The notes beneath the pieces are model-generated. The model saw nothing but the letters and a program-made list of their open reading frames with translations. It was not told where the DNA came from and ran no database searches. The position numbers and the translations under genes are program-made. From a virus: a stretch of DNA of 40,824 nucleotides. Location of the stretch: the IMG/VR virus record IMGVR_UViG_3300032722_000054, positions 1 to 40,824 of that record; one strand, 5' to 3'. This document shows, piece after piece, positions 3,194 through 36,366 of the stretch (position 1 is the first letter of the stretch; the number at the start of each line of letters is the position of its first letter).

Positions 3194-3796
3194 ATGTCTT
3201 ACGTCACTTCAATTGACGGCTTTGATTTTCCCCATGACGCCATTTCGGCCAAGAATAAGGATACGCTGATTCGTCGCACGATTAAGCATATCATGAACAA
3301 CGAAACGTCGTCGGCTGTTGTTGCTAAGCTCCGCGGGGAAGCCGTCAAGGCTCTCGGCGAAAATGCCAGCGAGGAAGCGAAAGAAGCCGCCTGGGAGTCG
3401 GTCAAGTTTGACAAGACCAATCCTGACCATCTCGCTTTGAAGAAAGAAGAGCAAGGCAAGCGCGCGCAAACTATCCTCCATGGCGAAATCGGCGAGTCTA
3501 CTCGCGCGCCGAGCCAGACGCCGCTTGAGGCCGAGATTGCCCGCATTGTCCGCGACCGCGTGATTGCGGTCCTGGTCGGCAAGGGGATACTTGACAAGGG
3601 CCGCAAGCTGCCTAAGCCGGAGCAGACCTTCGCGACGAACAAAGGCGTTCGGACTTTCGGGGACATGTGCGAGGGGTATTACAACGTCAATCGGGCCTCA
3701 GTAGACAAAGACGCCCAGGCATCTCTCGATCGCAAGGCCCGTGAAGCGGCGAAGTTGCAGGCGGAAGCGGCGAAGAGCGCCGACATCGACTTCTAA
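3194..3796 (+). CDS. Putative abundant early protein, 200 aa
   Basis: AAAGGAAAAG precedes the ATG. The protein (MSYVTSIDGFDFPHD...) is soluble and mostly charged and helical, with no recognised domain. The C-terminal 30 residues are an Ala/Lys/Glu-rich helix ending SADIDF. That acidic Phe-terminated tail recalls, without matching, the tips of single-stranded DNA-binding proteins. It stands alone between a promoter-like sequence and a perfect terminator hairpin, an arrangement typical of a strongly expressed gene. Function unknown; a DNA-binding or replication accessory role is one possibility. It is the first gene of the rightward arm. Confidence 0.8.
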   Translation: MSYVTSIDGFDFPHDAISAKNKDTLIRRTIKHIMNNETSSAVVAKLRGEAVKALGENASEEAKEAAWESVKFDKTNPDHLALKKEEQGKRAQTILHGEIGESTRAPSQTPLEAEIARIVRDRVIAVLVGKGILDKGRKLPKPEQTFATNKGVRTFGDMCEGYYNVNRASVDKDAQASLDRKAREAAKLQAEAAKSADIDF

Positions 3797-3807
3797 AAAT
3801 TGGTTCT

Positions 3808-3844
3808 CGCCCCGCAAGAATAATCTTTGCGGGGCGATTTTTTT
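3808..3844 (+). terminator. Rho-independent terminator
   Basis: A perfect 10-base stem CGCCCCGCAA/TTGCGGGGCG with a 9-base loop is followed by ATTTTTTT. It sits 12 bases after the stop of the 200-residue gene and should end that transcript efficiently. Confidence 0.92.
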
Positions 3845-3882
3845 CGTGGTACCTTGACCATACCACCAAGGAGAACCCCGAC

Positions 3883-4125
3883 ATGAGCACGAAGTATTAC
3901 GATGTTTATATCTGGAAGTCCGACATTCGCCATGATAGCTATGACTATCTCGCGACTACCGAACTAGGCAATCTTCCGATGTTGTTCAACGTTCATCACG
4001 ATGTTCTCCCTCGTGTAGAACGCGAAGCGCCAACCGAGGCCGGATGCGTGTTACACTTCAATGGCCGGAAAGTTGTCGGGAATGGAGAAGGCTTGATCGT
4101 ATTCAAGTCAACCATTGCGAAATAG
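3883..4125 (+). CDS. Small hypothetical protein, 80 aa
   Basis: AAGGAG lies 8 bases upstream of the ATG. The protein begins MSTKYYDVYIWKSDIRHDSY and alternates hydrophobic and polar residues, suggesting a small beta-rich fold. There is one Cys and no membrane segment. It is bracketed by two terminator-type hairpins (3808 and 4171), so it may be its own unit, although no clear promoter is visible in the 86-base gap before it. No family recognised. Confidence 0.75.
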   Translation: MSTKYYDVYIWKSDIRHDSYDYLATTELGNLPMLFNVHHDVLPRVEREAPTEAGCVLHFNGRKVVGNGEGLIVFKSTIAK

Positions 4126-4170
4126 TTGGCATTTGCCAACCAGGCCAACATCCAACATCCAACATCGAAC

Positions 4171-4195
4171 GGGGCGAGCAATCGCCCCTTTTCTT
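4171..4195 (+). terminator. Rho-independent terminator
   Basis: A GGGGCGA/TCGCCCC stem with a GCAA loop is followed by TTTTCTTT, 46 bases after the 80-residue gene. Just before it are the small hairpin GTTGGC/GCCAAC and three tandem AACATC(C/G) units (about 4147-4168). It probably ends the transcript of the small gene and isolates the structured element that follows. Confidence 0.85.
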
Positions 4196-4239
4196 TGCGT
4201 TCAATACCCCGCTTCACACTTCCCCGGCAAAAACAAGCT

Positions 4240-4630
4240 GATCCCATCCCGACTCGACCGGGGGACTGGCCGAGGTAGAGAGCCTGGAGGCGAGGTCGGG
4301 ACCACCGCTGACATTTTTGGCCCAAAACACTATGGCTCGATTTTGGGCGAAGCCGGGGCCATGCCAGCCGCAGTCGCCAGAACATCCGATGTGAATTTTG
4401 CCTTGTCCATCCTTGCCCAATTCCTCCAATTCCCCCTTGACTTCCTGGCCAAAACAGTACAAACTTCTCCCCGAGGTCTCAGGAACCCCTCTTCCTGCTG
4501 ATTCTCGGCGCGTGGTGGCGGGGAGCCTACCAGTCGCCAAAGCCGTGCCAGCCGTGGCTTTGGTCGGGTGATGCCCAAAAGTACTGGTAGGCTCTTGCCC
4601 TCCGCGTCTGCGTTCATCGAGAGCCACCAC
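4240..4630 (+). ncRNA. Candidate structured RNA or packaging element before terS
   Basis: This gene-poor stretch holds four separate inverted-repeat groups. A: TCCCGAC (4247) with GTCGGGA (4295), extended past a one-base bulge. B: GCCCAAAA (4320) with TTTTGGGC (4341). C: CCGAG/CTCGG (4471/4504) enclosing CAGGAA/TTCCTG (4480/4492). D: three nested arms, GTGGTGGC/GCCACCAC (4512/4623), GAGCCTACCAGT/ACTGGTAGGCTC (4523/4583) and CCAAAGCC/GGCTTTGG (4537/4556). All these pairs are exact. The element starts after a terminator and ends one base before the TTG of the small terminase gene. It could be a non-coding RNA, a translation-control leader, or a DNA packaging site. Confidence 0.55.
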
Positions 4631-4631
4631 C

Positions 4632-5366
4632 TTGAACCACAACGTCGCGAGCCAGGTTCTCCCGCCCGCCCTAGCCGAGGAAAGCCTCGACGACGAGGTC
4701 AACGGAGCCGCGCGCCGGGATGACGGGACCGAGATTCCGCTCCCGATCGCGCTTGATCTCGACCTCGACACCATCTTTCTCCCCCAAATGGCTTTCGGCC
4801 AGGTCGTCAAGCCGTATGAAGTCGTCATTGTCCGGGAACTGCAGGACAGCGACCTGGCGGCGCTTCTCTCCCCGACGACGCCGAAGGCCCCGCCGAGCAT
4901 CAAGTCCATCCGCGCGATTCATCACAAGATTGCGCAGTTGCTGGCCCAGGGGATCCCAGTTGCGGATATCTCGCTGATGACCGGGACGCCCCCAGGGGCG
5001 ATCCGCCGGCTCGAGGCCGATCCGAGCTTCCAGGCCCTGCAAGTTCACTACACCGGAGTCGTGCAGCTCCAATTTGTCGATGTCGTCGAGCGAATGCGGG
5101 ACCTCGGCATCGCGGCGTTGGAGGAACTGAAGGAACGGCTGGAAGACCAGCCGGGAAGTTTTTCCAACGGGCAGTTGAAAGATCTGGTCGAGTCAGTGTT
5201 GACGAAACCGATGAGCGCGGTGACGTTGGCGAAAGGCTTTGCCGGAGGGGGAGCAGGTCGAGGAGGAGCCGAAGGCTCTCCCCCCGTTAAGCTCGAGATC
5301 GTCTTCAAATCGCCCAAGGCGATTGACGGGGCCAGGTTGGTGCAAGGGGAGGAGGAAGCAGAATGA
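4632..5366 (+). CDS. Putative terminase small subunit
   Basis: The protein is 244 residues from a TTG start; no ATG lies near the beginning, and the ribosome site is weak (GAGAG). An acidic N-terminal half is followed by a helix-turn-helix-like segment around residues 94-130 (IAQLLAQGIPVADISLMTG, then IRRLEADPSFQ), the layout of phage small terminase DNA-recognition domains. A helical oligomerisation stretch follows (RMRDLGIAALEELKERLED, residues 155-173), then a Gly-rich tail. It would recognise packaging sites and load DNA into the large terminase. Unusually, the large subunit is 11 kb away. A different HTH regulator is the main alternative. Confidence 0.65.
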   Translation: MNHNVASQVLPPALAEESLDDEVNGAARRDDGTEIPLPIALDLDLDTIFLPQMAFGQVVKPYEVVIVRELQDSDLAALLSPTTPKAPPSIKSIRAIHHKIAQLLAQGIPVADISLMTGTPPGAIRRLEADPSFQALQVHYTGVVQLQFVDVVERMRDLGIAALEELKERLEDQPGSFSNGQLKDLVESVLTKPMSAVTLAKGFAGGGAGRGGAEGSPPVKLEIVFKSPKAIDGARLVQGEEEAE

Positions 5367-8694: not shown

Positions 8695-8704
8695 GGATTT
8701 GAAC

Positions 8705-9364
8705 ATGCAAGGTTTCGCAGGATTTGACAGGTCCGACTATCCCGGCAAGGCTGCGATGGACTGGCTGAAAGCCAATACGAACTTGCGTTGGTGCGGGTTC
8801 TATCTCGGCCCCGCGCCGAGCCATCCGAATACGAGCTGGATGGACGCGGACGACGCGGATTTCGAGGGCTGGGGTTTCGCGCCGATCTATGTTGGGCAAG
8901 AGACCGCCGGGCCGGGGAGCCATGTTGTCACGGCGGTTCGAGGAACGACAGATGGTCAGGATGCGTGTAAGTTGATGACGGCCGCGGGGTTCGACCTCGG
9001 CTCCGTCGTCTACCTCGATCTCGAAAACCCTGACCCGGTTCATCAAGCGCCGTATGTCGCCGCCTGGATCGACGCGGTGAAGGCTGGCGGGTTCTCGCCA
9101 GGGGCCTATACGAGTTTCATGGATGGGAAGCAGATCGCGGGGTTGCGGCCTGGGGTGAAGATCTGGGTCTTTCATGTCCCTTCGGTCATTCCGAGGAGAT
9201 TTTCCGGCAAAGTGTTTCCGACACCCGATCCGAAAACGAGCGGGTTTGCTGGCGCGAACGTCTGGCAGTTGTTCGACGCCGCGCTGATCGACGTTCCAGG
9301 GTTCCAGGGCGGAATGCTGGTTGACCTGAACTCGGCGGACTCGGCGGACCTGAGCAAGCCATAA
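8705..9364 (+). CDS. DUF1906 glycoside-hydrolase-like endolysin candidate
   Basis: The ATG at 8705 has GAGGAT 8 bases upstream; a TTG six bases earlier is less likely. The 219-residue protein matches the DUF1906 (Rv2525c-like, TIM-barrel) pattern: MQGFAGFDRSDYPG at the N-terminus, RWCGFYLGP, then VVYLDLENPDP around residues 100-112 with the acidic residues expected at the barrel end. A later Trp-rich strand contains NVWQLFDA. It has no signal peptide of its own. Placed directly before a holin-like gene, it is the likely peptidoglycan-degrading lysin. The exact bond cut is not known. Confidence 0.8.
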   Translation: MQGFAGFDRSDYPGKAAMDWLKANTNLRWCGFYLGPAPSHPNTSWMDADDADFEGWGFAPIYVGQETAGPGSHVVTAVRGTTDGQDACKLMTAAGFDLGSVVYLDLENPDPVHQAPYVAAWIDAVKAGGFSPGAYTSFMDGKQIAGLRPGVKIWVFHVPSVIPRRFSGKVFPTPDPKTSGFAGANVWQLFDAALIDVPGFQGGMLVDLNSADSADLSKP

Positions 9365-10190: not shown

Positions 10191-10790
10191 ATGCTCACTC
10201 ACCGCGAACTCGCCGAACGCGTTTTGCTGGCTTACAAGAACCCAGCGACGATCGACGTTGGCGGCGACGCGCGGTGTGTGGTTGAGATTCTGGAAGACGA
10301 GATCGTGATCGCGTTTCCCGGAACGAGTGATCTCGCCGGGTGGCTTCGCGACTTCTCCGCGTGGCCGAAAGCCGATGTCAACCTCGGACTGCTGCACGAA
10401 GGCTTCGCCGACGCGGCGAGGAGACTGTGGAGCCCGATTTACGCGGTGCTGCTGCAGGAACCGCCGGGAAGGCAAATTACCCTAACCGGACACAGCCTGG
10501 GCGGCGCGATCGCGCAGGACCTTGGCGGGCTACTGGCCCTCCACGCGTTTCTCTTTCGCGTCGTGACCTTCGCCGCGCCCCGCAGCGCCTTCGCGGCGAA
10601 TGTGACGCTGGGGCGCTTGCTGCAAAACGCGACCGAGGCCATGGCCTATGCTCATCGGGGTGACCTCGTTCCGAACTCACCACCCTGGCCGATCTGGAAA
10701 CATGTAGTGCGCCGAACAATGCTTGGCTGGCCTGACGCCCGCCCGATTGAAGATCACGCGATGTCACTTTATCTCAAGGATCTGCCATGA
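10191..10790 (+). CDS. Class 3 lipase family protein
   Basis: The 199-residue protein has the alpha/beta-hydrolase signature of Lipase_3: an oxyanion region AFPGTSDLAGWLRDF (residues 41-55) and the nucleophile elbow GHSLGGA with Ser102. It also has HRGDLVPNSP with Asp158 and a late EDHAMSLY with His189, so the full Ser-Asp-His triad is present. It probably hydrolyses esters in membrane lipids or the outer envelope. It sits inside the lysis module, overlapping the next gene by ATGA. No signal peptide is present, so it would need the holin or lysis itself to reach the envelope. Confidence 0.85.
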   Translation: MLTHRELAERVLLAYKNPATIDVGGDARCVVEILEDEIVIAFPGTSDLAGWLRDFSAWPKADVNLGLLHEGFADAARRLWSPIYAVLLQEPPGRQITLTGHSLGGAIAQDLGGLLALHAFLFRVVTFAAPRSAFAANVTLGRLLQNATEAMAYAHRGDLVPNSPPWPIWKHVVRRTMLGWPDARPIEDHAMSLYLKDLP

Positions 10791-16553: not shown

Positions 16554-16572
16554 CCATAGTTTGATGGTCAAA
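16554..16572 (+). promoter_or_regulatory. Palindromic CCATRG-TTTGA-N3-TCAAA site, copy A
   Basis: CCATAG followed by TTTGATGGTCAAA overlaps the very start of the large terminase frame. The 13-base core is identical to the one at 35660 and close to that at 2842. Its position at the terminase start suggests control of the packaging and virion genes, either as an operator or as a phage promoter element. Confidence 0.5.
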
Positions 16573-17943
16573 GTTCACATGCCACAGCTTGACTTGACCC
16601 GAGTTGAATTTCCGGAAAAATTGCAATGTTTGTTCTCGAACAAACGCTACATCGTATTGTATGGTGGGAGAGGGGCCGGACGGTCCTGGGGAGTAGCCAG
16701 GGCTTTGCTAGCTCTCTCCACCGTCCAACCGTTGAATGTCCTTTGCGCCCGTGAACTGCAGAACTCCATCGACGAATCGGTGCATAAGGTGCTGAGTACC
16801 CAGATTGCCAAGCTGAACGTCGCGGACCTGTTTGAAGTCCAGCGGGACCATATTTATGGACCGGGCGGGACGAGCTTCAGCTACATCGGAATTAAGAACA
16901 ACGCGAATAAAGTTAGGTCGTTTGAGGGAATTGATATTTGCTGGGTGGAAGAGGCGAATAAAGTTAGCAAGAATTCCTGGCAGATTTTAATTCCCACCGT
17001 GAGAAAGAAAGGCTCCAAGATCATCATCACGTTCAATCCTGAACTTGAGTCCGACTACACCTATGTCCGATTCGTGAAGGAGGAGAAGAAAAACGCGAGG
17101 GAAGTCAAGAACGACGCCGGGGAGACTCTCTGGTGGGAGACCGACGACACCATCATCTGCAAGATGACCTACAAGGACAATCCTTGGTTTTTTGCTGACA
17201 CCGAACTCGTGCCGGATATGGAGAAGGCAAAGAAGAACGACTACGACGAATATCTGAATGTTTGGGAAGGCAATCCGGCACAGGTGCTCGAAGGCGCGGT
17301 GTACGCGAAGGAGCTCCGACGCGCCCAGACCGAAGGCCGAATCTGTTCCGTTCCGTATGAGAGGGAAATTCCGGTTGACACCTTCTGGGACCTCGGCCGG
17401 GCCGACAACACGGCGATCTGGTTCATGCAACGAGTCGCCATGCAGTACCGGATTTTGGAATACTTCGAGATCTGCGGGGAAGACGTTACGACGATTTTGA
17501 AAGAGTTGCAGAAGAAGAAGTATCTCTACGGCACCATGTTTCTCCCGCATGATGGGAAGCATAAGAAGCTGGTGTATAAGAACTCAATCGAGGAGATCGT
17601 GAGGAATTCCGGCTACAACGTCATCGTCCTGCCGAAGACTCCACAGCTCGACGGCATCAACGCGGCGAGGGAAATGTTCCCGAACTGCTATTTTGACGAA
17701 GAAGGTTGTGAAGACGGGCTCCACGCGCTTCGGCATTACAAGTATGAGATCAAAGATGGGCAGAGGTCGGCGACGCCCAAGCATGATGAGGCTTCCGATG
17801 GCGCGGACGCGTTCAGGTACATGGCGATGGCGAGAAGGCTCCCAAGAGCCAAGTCGGACCTGGCAGCTAGGTTGACTGTCAAATCCACGGCTGGCAGAAC
17901 GCTCGACCGCGTCAAACAAACCGCACTCGGATGGATGGGATAA
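16564..17943 (+). CDS. terL: Terminase large subunit
   Basis: The 459-residue protein carries the packaging ATPase and nuclease domains. Walker A is YGGRGAGRSW (residues 33-42) and Walker B is IDICWVEEAN (123-132), with a coupling motif near FNPE (157-160). The nuclease half includes the strand VDTFWDLGRADNTAIWF and the late DGADAFRYM, giving the usual acidic cluster. This pattern fits PBSX/Terminase_3-type motors that pump DNA into the prohead through the portal. The start is uncertain: ATG at 16564, a TTG at 16561, or ATG at 16579. None has a good ribosome site, and the palindromic site lies across this region. Confidence 0.93.
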   Translation: MVKVHMPQLDLTRVEFPEKLQCLFSNKRYIVLYGGRGAGRSWGVARALLALSTVQPLNVLCARELQNSIDESVHKVLSTQIAKLNVADLFEVQRDHIYGPGGTSFSYIGIKNNANKVRSFEGIDICWVEEANKVSKNSWQILIPTVRKKGSKIIITFNPELESDYTYVRFVKEEKKNAREVKNDAGETLWWETDDTIICKMTYKDNPWFFADTELVPDMEKAKKNDYDEYLNVWEGNPAQVLEGAVYAKELRRAQTEGRICSVPYEREIPVDTFWDLGRADNTAIWFMQRVAMQYRILEYFEICGEDVTTILKELQKKKYLYGTMFLPHDGKHKKLVYKNSIEEIVRNSGYNVIVLPKTPQLDGINAAREMFPNCYFDEEGCEDGLHALRHYKYEIKDGQRSATPKHDEASDGADAFRYMAMARRLPRAKSDLAARLTVKSTAGRTLDRVKQTALGWMG

Positions 17944-35690: not shown

Positions 35691-36366
35691 TCGTTTGTGT
35701 TTCTCTCATCATCTTATCAGCTTCAGTTTTACCGAACTGCCTAACACAGTTAACATAAAATTCAATATCAATTTTTGTCCAATTTGCCTTCTTTAACTCC
35801 CGCTGCAAGTTCTTCAATTCCTTCTGCTCCCTTAAAATCTCGTGCCCAATCAATAATTCGCTGTCGCTTCTTCCAATGCCATTGTTGTTGACATCGCTCC
35901 CGACAGAATTTCTGCCATGCTCGGTCGGGGAGAAAAAGATCTCCGCAATTGACGCATTTGGATTCTTCGCGTTTTCCCATTTCAGTCTATCCTCAAGTCT
36001 TGCTTGCTTGTTTCTGTTGAAAACAACCGCAGTCCAGAGCGTGTATCCGAATTCTTCTAATTCCTTCGCGGTGAAGTTGTTGTATCCGCTCCAGCGAAGT
36101 TTGAGCCTTTCTTGAATATAATCTCTTTTATGATTAACAGTCTCAAATACTTTATCACTTGCAATTGAGTTGCATTCAAGACAACTCGGCAGAATAAATC
36201 TTCCACTGCTAACATCGAGCACTTCTGCCATCATGACTGCTTTTGAGATCGGCAAGAAATGATCCCCGCATTCCTCCCATTCCCCGCAATAGACGCAGAG
36301 ACCCCCGTTGTTGAGTCGGTAGTAAAGCGCGTTTTGACGGCGCATATCTGATTCGCGTTGGCGCAT
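35668..36366 (-). CDS. HNH endonuclease
   Basis: The 232-residue protein has a zinc-ribbon HNH core: CVYCGEW (C24, C27), CGDHFLPIS with Asp35-His36, and LPSCLECNSIASDK (C62, C65, N66). Helical regions follow, with KELKNLQRELKKANWTKID near residues 180-198. HNH enzymes nick or cut DNA; free-standing ones in phage genomes are often mobile (homing) or help packaging. It is clearly richer in A/T than the flanking genes and has its own sigma70-type promoter, so it looks like an acquired cassette. The middle-to-C-terminal part fully contains another ORF in a second frame. Confidence 0.82.
   Translation of the reverse strand: MRQRESDMRRQNALYYRLNNGGLCVYCGEWEECGDHFLPISKAVMMAEVLDVSSGRFILPSCLECNSIASDKVFETVNHKRDYIQERLKLRWSGYNNFTAKELEEFGYTLWTAVVFNRNKQARLEDRLKWENAKNPNASIAEIFFSPTEHGRNSVGSDVNNNGIGRSDSELLIGHEILREQKELKNLQRELKKANWTKIDIEFYVNCVRQFGKTEADKMMRETQTTDPRSIV
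35768..35980 (-). CDS. Zinc-ribbon protein nested in the HNH gene
   Basis: The 70-residue frame lies wholly inside the HNH gene in a different frame. It has its own ribosome site (GAGGAT about 10 bases upstream of the ATG) and a strong conserved-type pattern: CVNCGDLFLPDRAWQKFCRE with C9, C12, C26 and C30, then WHWKKRQRIIDWARDF. This C-x2-C...C-x3-C plus basic helix is typical of small phage zinc-ribbon, DNA-binding-like proteins and is unlikely by chance. Either both frames are translated (overprinting), or a programmed or assembly frameshift joins the HNH N-terminal part to this end. Confidence 0.55.
   Translation of the reverse strand: MGKREESKCVNCGDLFLPDRAWQKFCRERCQQQWHWKKRQRIIDWARDFKGAEGIEELAAGVKEGKLDKN

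Follow-up and report, generated by a model that had tools for sequence, protein, structure and literature searches.

Immediately upstream of the small terminase gene (terS) of an uncultured phage lies a stretch of DNA (positions 4240-4630) whose role is not apparent from its reading frames. The original prediction, made on the IMG/VR record IMGVR_UViG_3300032722_000054 (40,824 nucleotides, hereafter the window), had seen in it an element rich in inverted repeats and had proposed a novel non-coding RNA, a regulatory leader of terS or a cos/pac-like packaging site. We therefore asked which of these functions the region is likely to serve, by analysis of its folding, its conservation among relatives and its position with respect to genome ends.

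Genomic context and identity of the small terminase gene

The window is a single linear record from a P22-like phage, with a P22-type portal and coat and a Terminase_3 large subunit (TerL), and encodes a family A DNA polymerase on its minus strand. A second IMG/VR contig (G001, loci L285-L286) bridges the two ends of the window: it runs on from the right end through a further 15.4 kb and into the left end, at 99.98-100% identity. The genome map is therefore circular, with a length of about 56.2 kb. The 15.4 kb added by this contig code for a UvrD-like helicase, a PD-(D/E)XK nuclease and an AAA protein, all on the minus strand. Among the late genes that lie between terS and terL are those for an Rv2525c-like glycoside-hydrolase-like protein and a class 3 lipase (window 8699-9364 and 10191-10790).

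The main features around the region are listed in Table 1. A terminator had been predicted to isolate the region from the preceding gene, and an intrinsic terminator was indeed found there. The region was also confirmed to be devoid of convincing genes, as none of its open reading frames matched Pfam or PHROGs. Reading frames 4214-4909 (-), 4330-4617 (-) and 4115-4501 (+) were considered as genes and rejected, having no homologues.

Table 1 Features of the window around the terS upstream region
Feature	Position	Strand	Remarks
Upstream gene	3883-4125		set apart from the element by the intrinsic terminator
Intrinsic terminator	4171-4188	+	7-pair stem, T-rich tail
Core motif CCGGGGGACTGGCC	4258-4271	+	proposed terminase cutting/nicking core; single copy in window
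Spacer	4272-4322	+	51 bp in window; length conserved, sequence largely free between groups
Second conserved block CAAAACACTATGGCTC	4323-4338	+	4323-4336 = CAAAACACTATGGC; consensus cAAAACACcaTGGCca; putative TerS-binding site
terS-leader hairpin	4523-4594	+	12-bp arms 4523-4534/4583-4594; inner 8-bp arms 4537-4544/4556-4563
terS, small terminase subunit	4632-5366	+	TTG start assumed
terL, large terminase subunit	16561-17943	+	Terminase_3, PF04466, 1.3e-40

No Pfam or PHROG family passed for the protein encoded by 4632-5366. Homologues were found in 17 of the 48 records searched, 46 of which had been recruited through the large subunit. Among cultured phages, a related TerS was found in Caulobacter phage Kuura alone; its annotated TerS matched this protein with 33% identity over 97 amino acids. 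The predicted fold consists of a helix-turn-helix (HTH) followed by long helices. Foldseek searches with this model gave no TerS match at E ≤ 0.001, and its structural likeness to four solved small terminases (2ao9, Z 8.4; NV1 7joq, Sf6 3hef and PaP3 6w7t; overall range 5.7-8.4) comes from a second-look aligner only. Unrelated HTH proteins reached similar Z values, and the fold alone would therefore not name the gene a small terminase. Homology to an annotated TerS, the HTH and long-helix architecture and location on the terL strand together identify it as one. Searches of bacterial genomes with the TerS profile and with the element pattern described below returned nothing, nor was TerS found in plasmids.

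Inverted repeats and folding of the region

Six exact inverted-repeat pairs of at least 8 bp, the longest of 12 bp, were counted in 4240-4630, where dinucleotide shuffles gave 1.1 ± 1.0 pairs. None of 500 shuffles reached six pairs and 0.4% reached a length of 12 bp; among 203 sampled stretches of the window this one was the richest in inverted repeats. The inverted repeats reported in the original prediction are thus present. The accompanying claim of much more secondary structure than in a normal spacer did not hold, as folding of the 416-base region was ordinary when compared with shuffled sequences (z -0.22 and -0.26 on the two strands). Only 4501-4640, the terS leader, was unusual, with a z of -3.60 and none of 200 shuffles as stable. 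Of the three nested arms that had been described for this last domain, the 12-bp and inner 8-bp arms do pair, while the outer arm GTGGTGGC/GCCACCAC is absent from the minimum-energy fold. The terS leaders of 11 relatives were mostly ordinary (z +0.9 to -2.05) and did not show the hairpin at the same place; its 12-bp arm sequence occurs nowhere else in the genome sequence compared. The hairpin is thus probably specific to the window and separate from the conserved element presented below; being locally significant, it may belong to a regulatory leader of terS, as had been proposed.

The excess of exact inverted repeats and the local fold of the leader are what a structured non-coding or cis-regulatory RNA spanning 4240-4630 would have in its favour. 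Such an RNA is nevertheless very improbable in our assessment, as the region showed no excess of folding on either strand and no match to Rfam at gathering or relaxed thresholds. A consensus fold of 17 homologous sites, which covers the element, consisted of three base pairs, none supported by compensatory changes; this is the outcome that the prediction of an RNA had itself named as speaking against it. Stems bridging the conserved core were hardly longer than those in shuffled sequences. We therefore read the element as a DNA site rather than as an RNA.

A conserved bipartite element upstream of terS

Comparison of the DNA upstream of terS among relatives revealed the core motif CCGGGGGACTGGCC. 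This core and its partner at 4323-4338 are absent from the first description of the region. In all, 26 distinct sites carry the core on the terS strand, at distances from 34 bp to 2.6 kb ahead of terS; two of them are weak (L024, with a poor core and the second block missing, and L085). The TerS proteins of the relatives that carry the core are only about 30-40% identical to that of the window, with values of 27-36% over the alignment. Two TerS loci, L100 and L140, had no recognisable element site. By eye, G+C-rich hairpins resembling the terminator of the window could be made out directly ahead of the core in L059, L094, L099 and L134.

As the core had first been noticed via the window sequence, its specificity was tested separately. 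When both strands of 79 TerL-anchored loci were scanned (2.0 million positions), all six core sites scoring at least 18 bits were located upstream of terS and on the same strand. At least 120 exact core matches were found in viral contigs, mostly in unrelated contexts; those outside the TerS family of the window lay in unrelated contexts and were not accompanied by the second block. The word GGGGACTGGCC was single-copy in all records but one. That record, G011, carries two such words on the terS strand (36237-36247 and 53440-53450), 17 kb apart. The core was not found upstream of terS in H66 and Manatee Spring, two F116-like TerL relatives, blastn of the region against cultured phages gave no hits, and a literature search for the core string returned no phage paper among the matches listed.

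The second part of the element emerged when the first group of relatives was searched de novo for motifs over the 160 bp that follow the core; this returned cAAAACACcaTGGCca with a log-likelihood of 108, compared with 43-53 in shuffled sets. In the window this block is preceded by a T-tract (4314-4318). In a second group of relatives (L094-L099 and kin) the corresponding position, about 52 bp beyond the core, is occupied by AAAAAGGTGATGGACC. In nine loci, 49-51 bp separate the core from the start of the block, and in three the gap is 60-62 bp; counted from the core start, the offsets are +63 to +66 or +74 to +76. The difference of approximately 10-12 bp is one helical turn, as would be expected if a single protein complex contacted both parts on the same side of the helix. 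Further copies of the block downstream numbered five where 1.5 were expected, and were mostly weak.

Three TGgCCmAAAA-like words were also observed at 4318-4326, 4446-4454 and 4572-4580, with spacings of 128 and 126 bp. The first overlaps the second block, and the three supply part of the inverted repeats. They could be accessory binding sites or could have arisen by chance.

At many loci the core reads PGDWP in one forward frame, and its conservation might in principle reflect a short peptide (forward PGDWP..., reverse ...GQSPG). We regard this as most improbable: the reading frames around the core are unrelated between loci in sequence and length, the distance to the second block shifts by single bases or by about one helical turn and so breaks the frame, and no family match was found in the window.

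The position of the element raises the further question of whether it serves the late genes as a whole, as a phage- or host-factor-dependent promoter or an antitermination site switching them on. It begins the rightward late region, after a terminator and oriented like the late genes, among the first of which terS is usually found. In five relatives (L127, L124, L126, L122 and L245) it is separated from terS by 1.7-2.6 kb with forward reading frames, and what it marks is therefore the beginning of the late region, not terS as such; with core-terS distances of up to 2.6 kb, the element need not be terS-specific. We nevertheless consider a late-operon control site unlikely. No sigma-70-like promoter was found in 3750-4700, the element is single-copy in nearly all records, and its 82-bp bipartite layout, with a fixed or one-turn-longer spacing and an A-tract, would be unusual for a promoter. 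Late control would also leave unexplained the contig ends at the core, which are discussed below, and the co-occurrence of the element with the TerS family.

A site for the initiation of packaging is consistent with the same observations, namely a conserved DNA site by terS and terL, in the same orientation and present once per genome (with G011, L100 and L140 as exceptions). Of the functions offered in the original prediction, the cos/pac-like packaging site is thus the one backed by comparative evidence from relatives. That support comprises conservation, orientation, a fixed spacing with a one-turn alternative, mostly single copy and co-occurrence with the TerS family, all of which the sequence comparisons show.

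Genome ends, packaging type and proposed function

Two contig ends fall at the core: the contig of one relative (G056, locus L133) begins 3 nt after it, and the circular contig G013 has its break within the core. By a rough estimate of our own, 0.05 ends within 20 nt of the core would be expected over about 27 contigs. Several contigs run through the core, so that this evidence is weak, and the contig ends give a thin indication of a cut there.

The genome end of phage Kuura has been mapped by PhageTerm, revealing 606-bp direct terminal repeats (PMC9959647). In its genome (OQ067476, 43079-43213), a run of twelve A begins about 48 bp beyond a diverged core, TCGGGGGTCTGGTC; this core is located upstream of terS, about 130 bp outside the mapped genome end. 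Kuura thus resembles the present phage in its related TerS, in a genome end within the same divergent junction upstream of terS and in a diverged core with an A-tract nearby. Its core differs at three of 14 positions, and nine other core matches in the Kuura genome rank above it, although it is the only one of 20 weak matches to have a long A-tract at the right spacing. Owing to the three mismatches the likeness could be due to chance; the Kuura site is possibly a distant form of the element.

The type of packaging can be argued in several directions. A pac type is favoured by the P22-like head genes, the circular map and the F116-like relatives of TerL, which are headful packagers (PMC5217972). 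A defined cut, at a cos site or a terminal repeat, is favoured by the near-invariant core and the contig ends found there, and terminal repeats in particular are favoured by Kuura. The circular genome map is also compatible with a cos or terminal-repeat phage.

Known packaging systems offer partial parallels. The present phage resembles those with headful pac packaging (P22, SPP1, Sf6 and F116-like) in its P22-like portal and coat and its Terminase_3 TerL, and its own genome map is circular. The pac site of P22 lies inside its terS gene, whereas the present element is intergenic. In N15, the cos site comprises cosN and one R3 TerS site as a simple cosB (PMC4669245). Like N15 and lambda-type cos sites, the present element has a GC-rich core upstream of terS and, towards terS, one TerS-binding-like block at a short fixed distance; no sequence similarity was noted and no cosQ was identified, and the likeness is one of layout. 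In contrast to lambda-type phages, the present TerL belongs to Terminase_3, the head genes are P22-like, and the core hardly varies although the TerS proteins diverge widely; it can be as far as 2.6 kb away from terS. In HK97, the TerS site is 15-29 bp downstream of the cut and an A-tract is essential for TerS binding (PMC10370121). An A-tract beside G/C bases downstream of the (here proposed) cut is likewise found in the present element, but about 50 bp from the core as opposed to the 15-29 bp of HK97.

Overall, we propose that window 4258-4338 is probably where the terminase of this P22-like phage recognises and cuts the DNA, be it a site of the cos, pac or terminal-repeat type. TerS, the product of the gene just downstream, would bind the A-tract/CACyaTGGCC block through its helix-turn-helix and would thereby place TerL on the GC-rich core about 50 bp upstream. 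The concatemer would then be cut at the core, and packaging would start towards terS, terL and the portal. More tentatively, and with less than even confidence, we suggest that the core may be a nearly invariant, sequence-specific TerL cutting signal in a large uncultured group of P22-like phages, across TerS proteins that are approximately 30-40% identical.

Phage packaging sites are a known kind of element; they are usually found only by sequencing of virion ends and differ between related phages. To our knowledge, known packaging sites diverge much faster than the present core, and as far as could be searched neither this sequence family nor the depth to which it is conserved has been described. 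Because its spacing varies by one helical turn, the element may provide a clean system for studying the coupling between TerS position, DNA bending and TerL cutting. If the more tentative of these readings is true, genome ends could be predicted from sequence alone by a 14-bp word and an A-tract block at a distance of about 50 or 61 bp. A signal that can be read in the DNA would allow both genome ends and the direction of packaging to be predicted for many uncultured phages.
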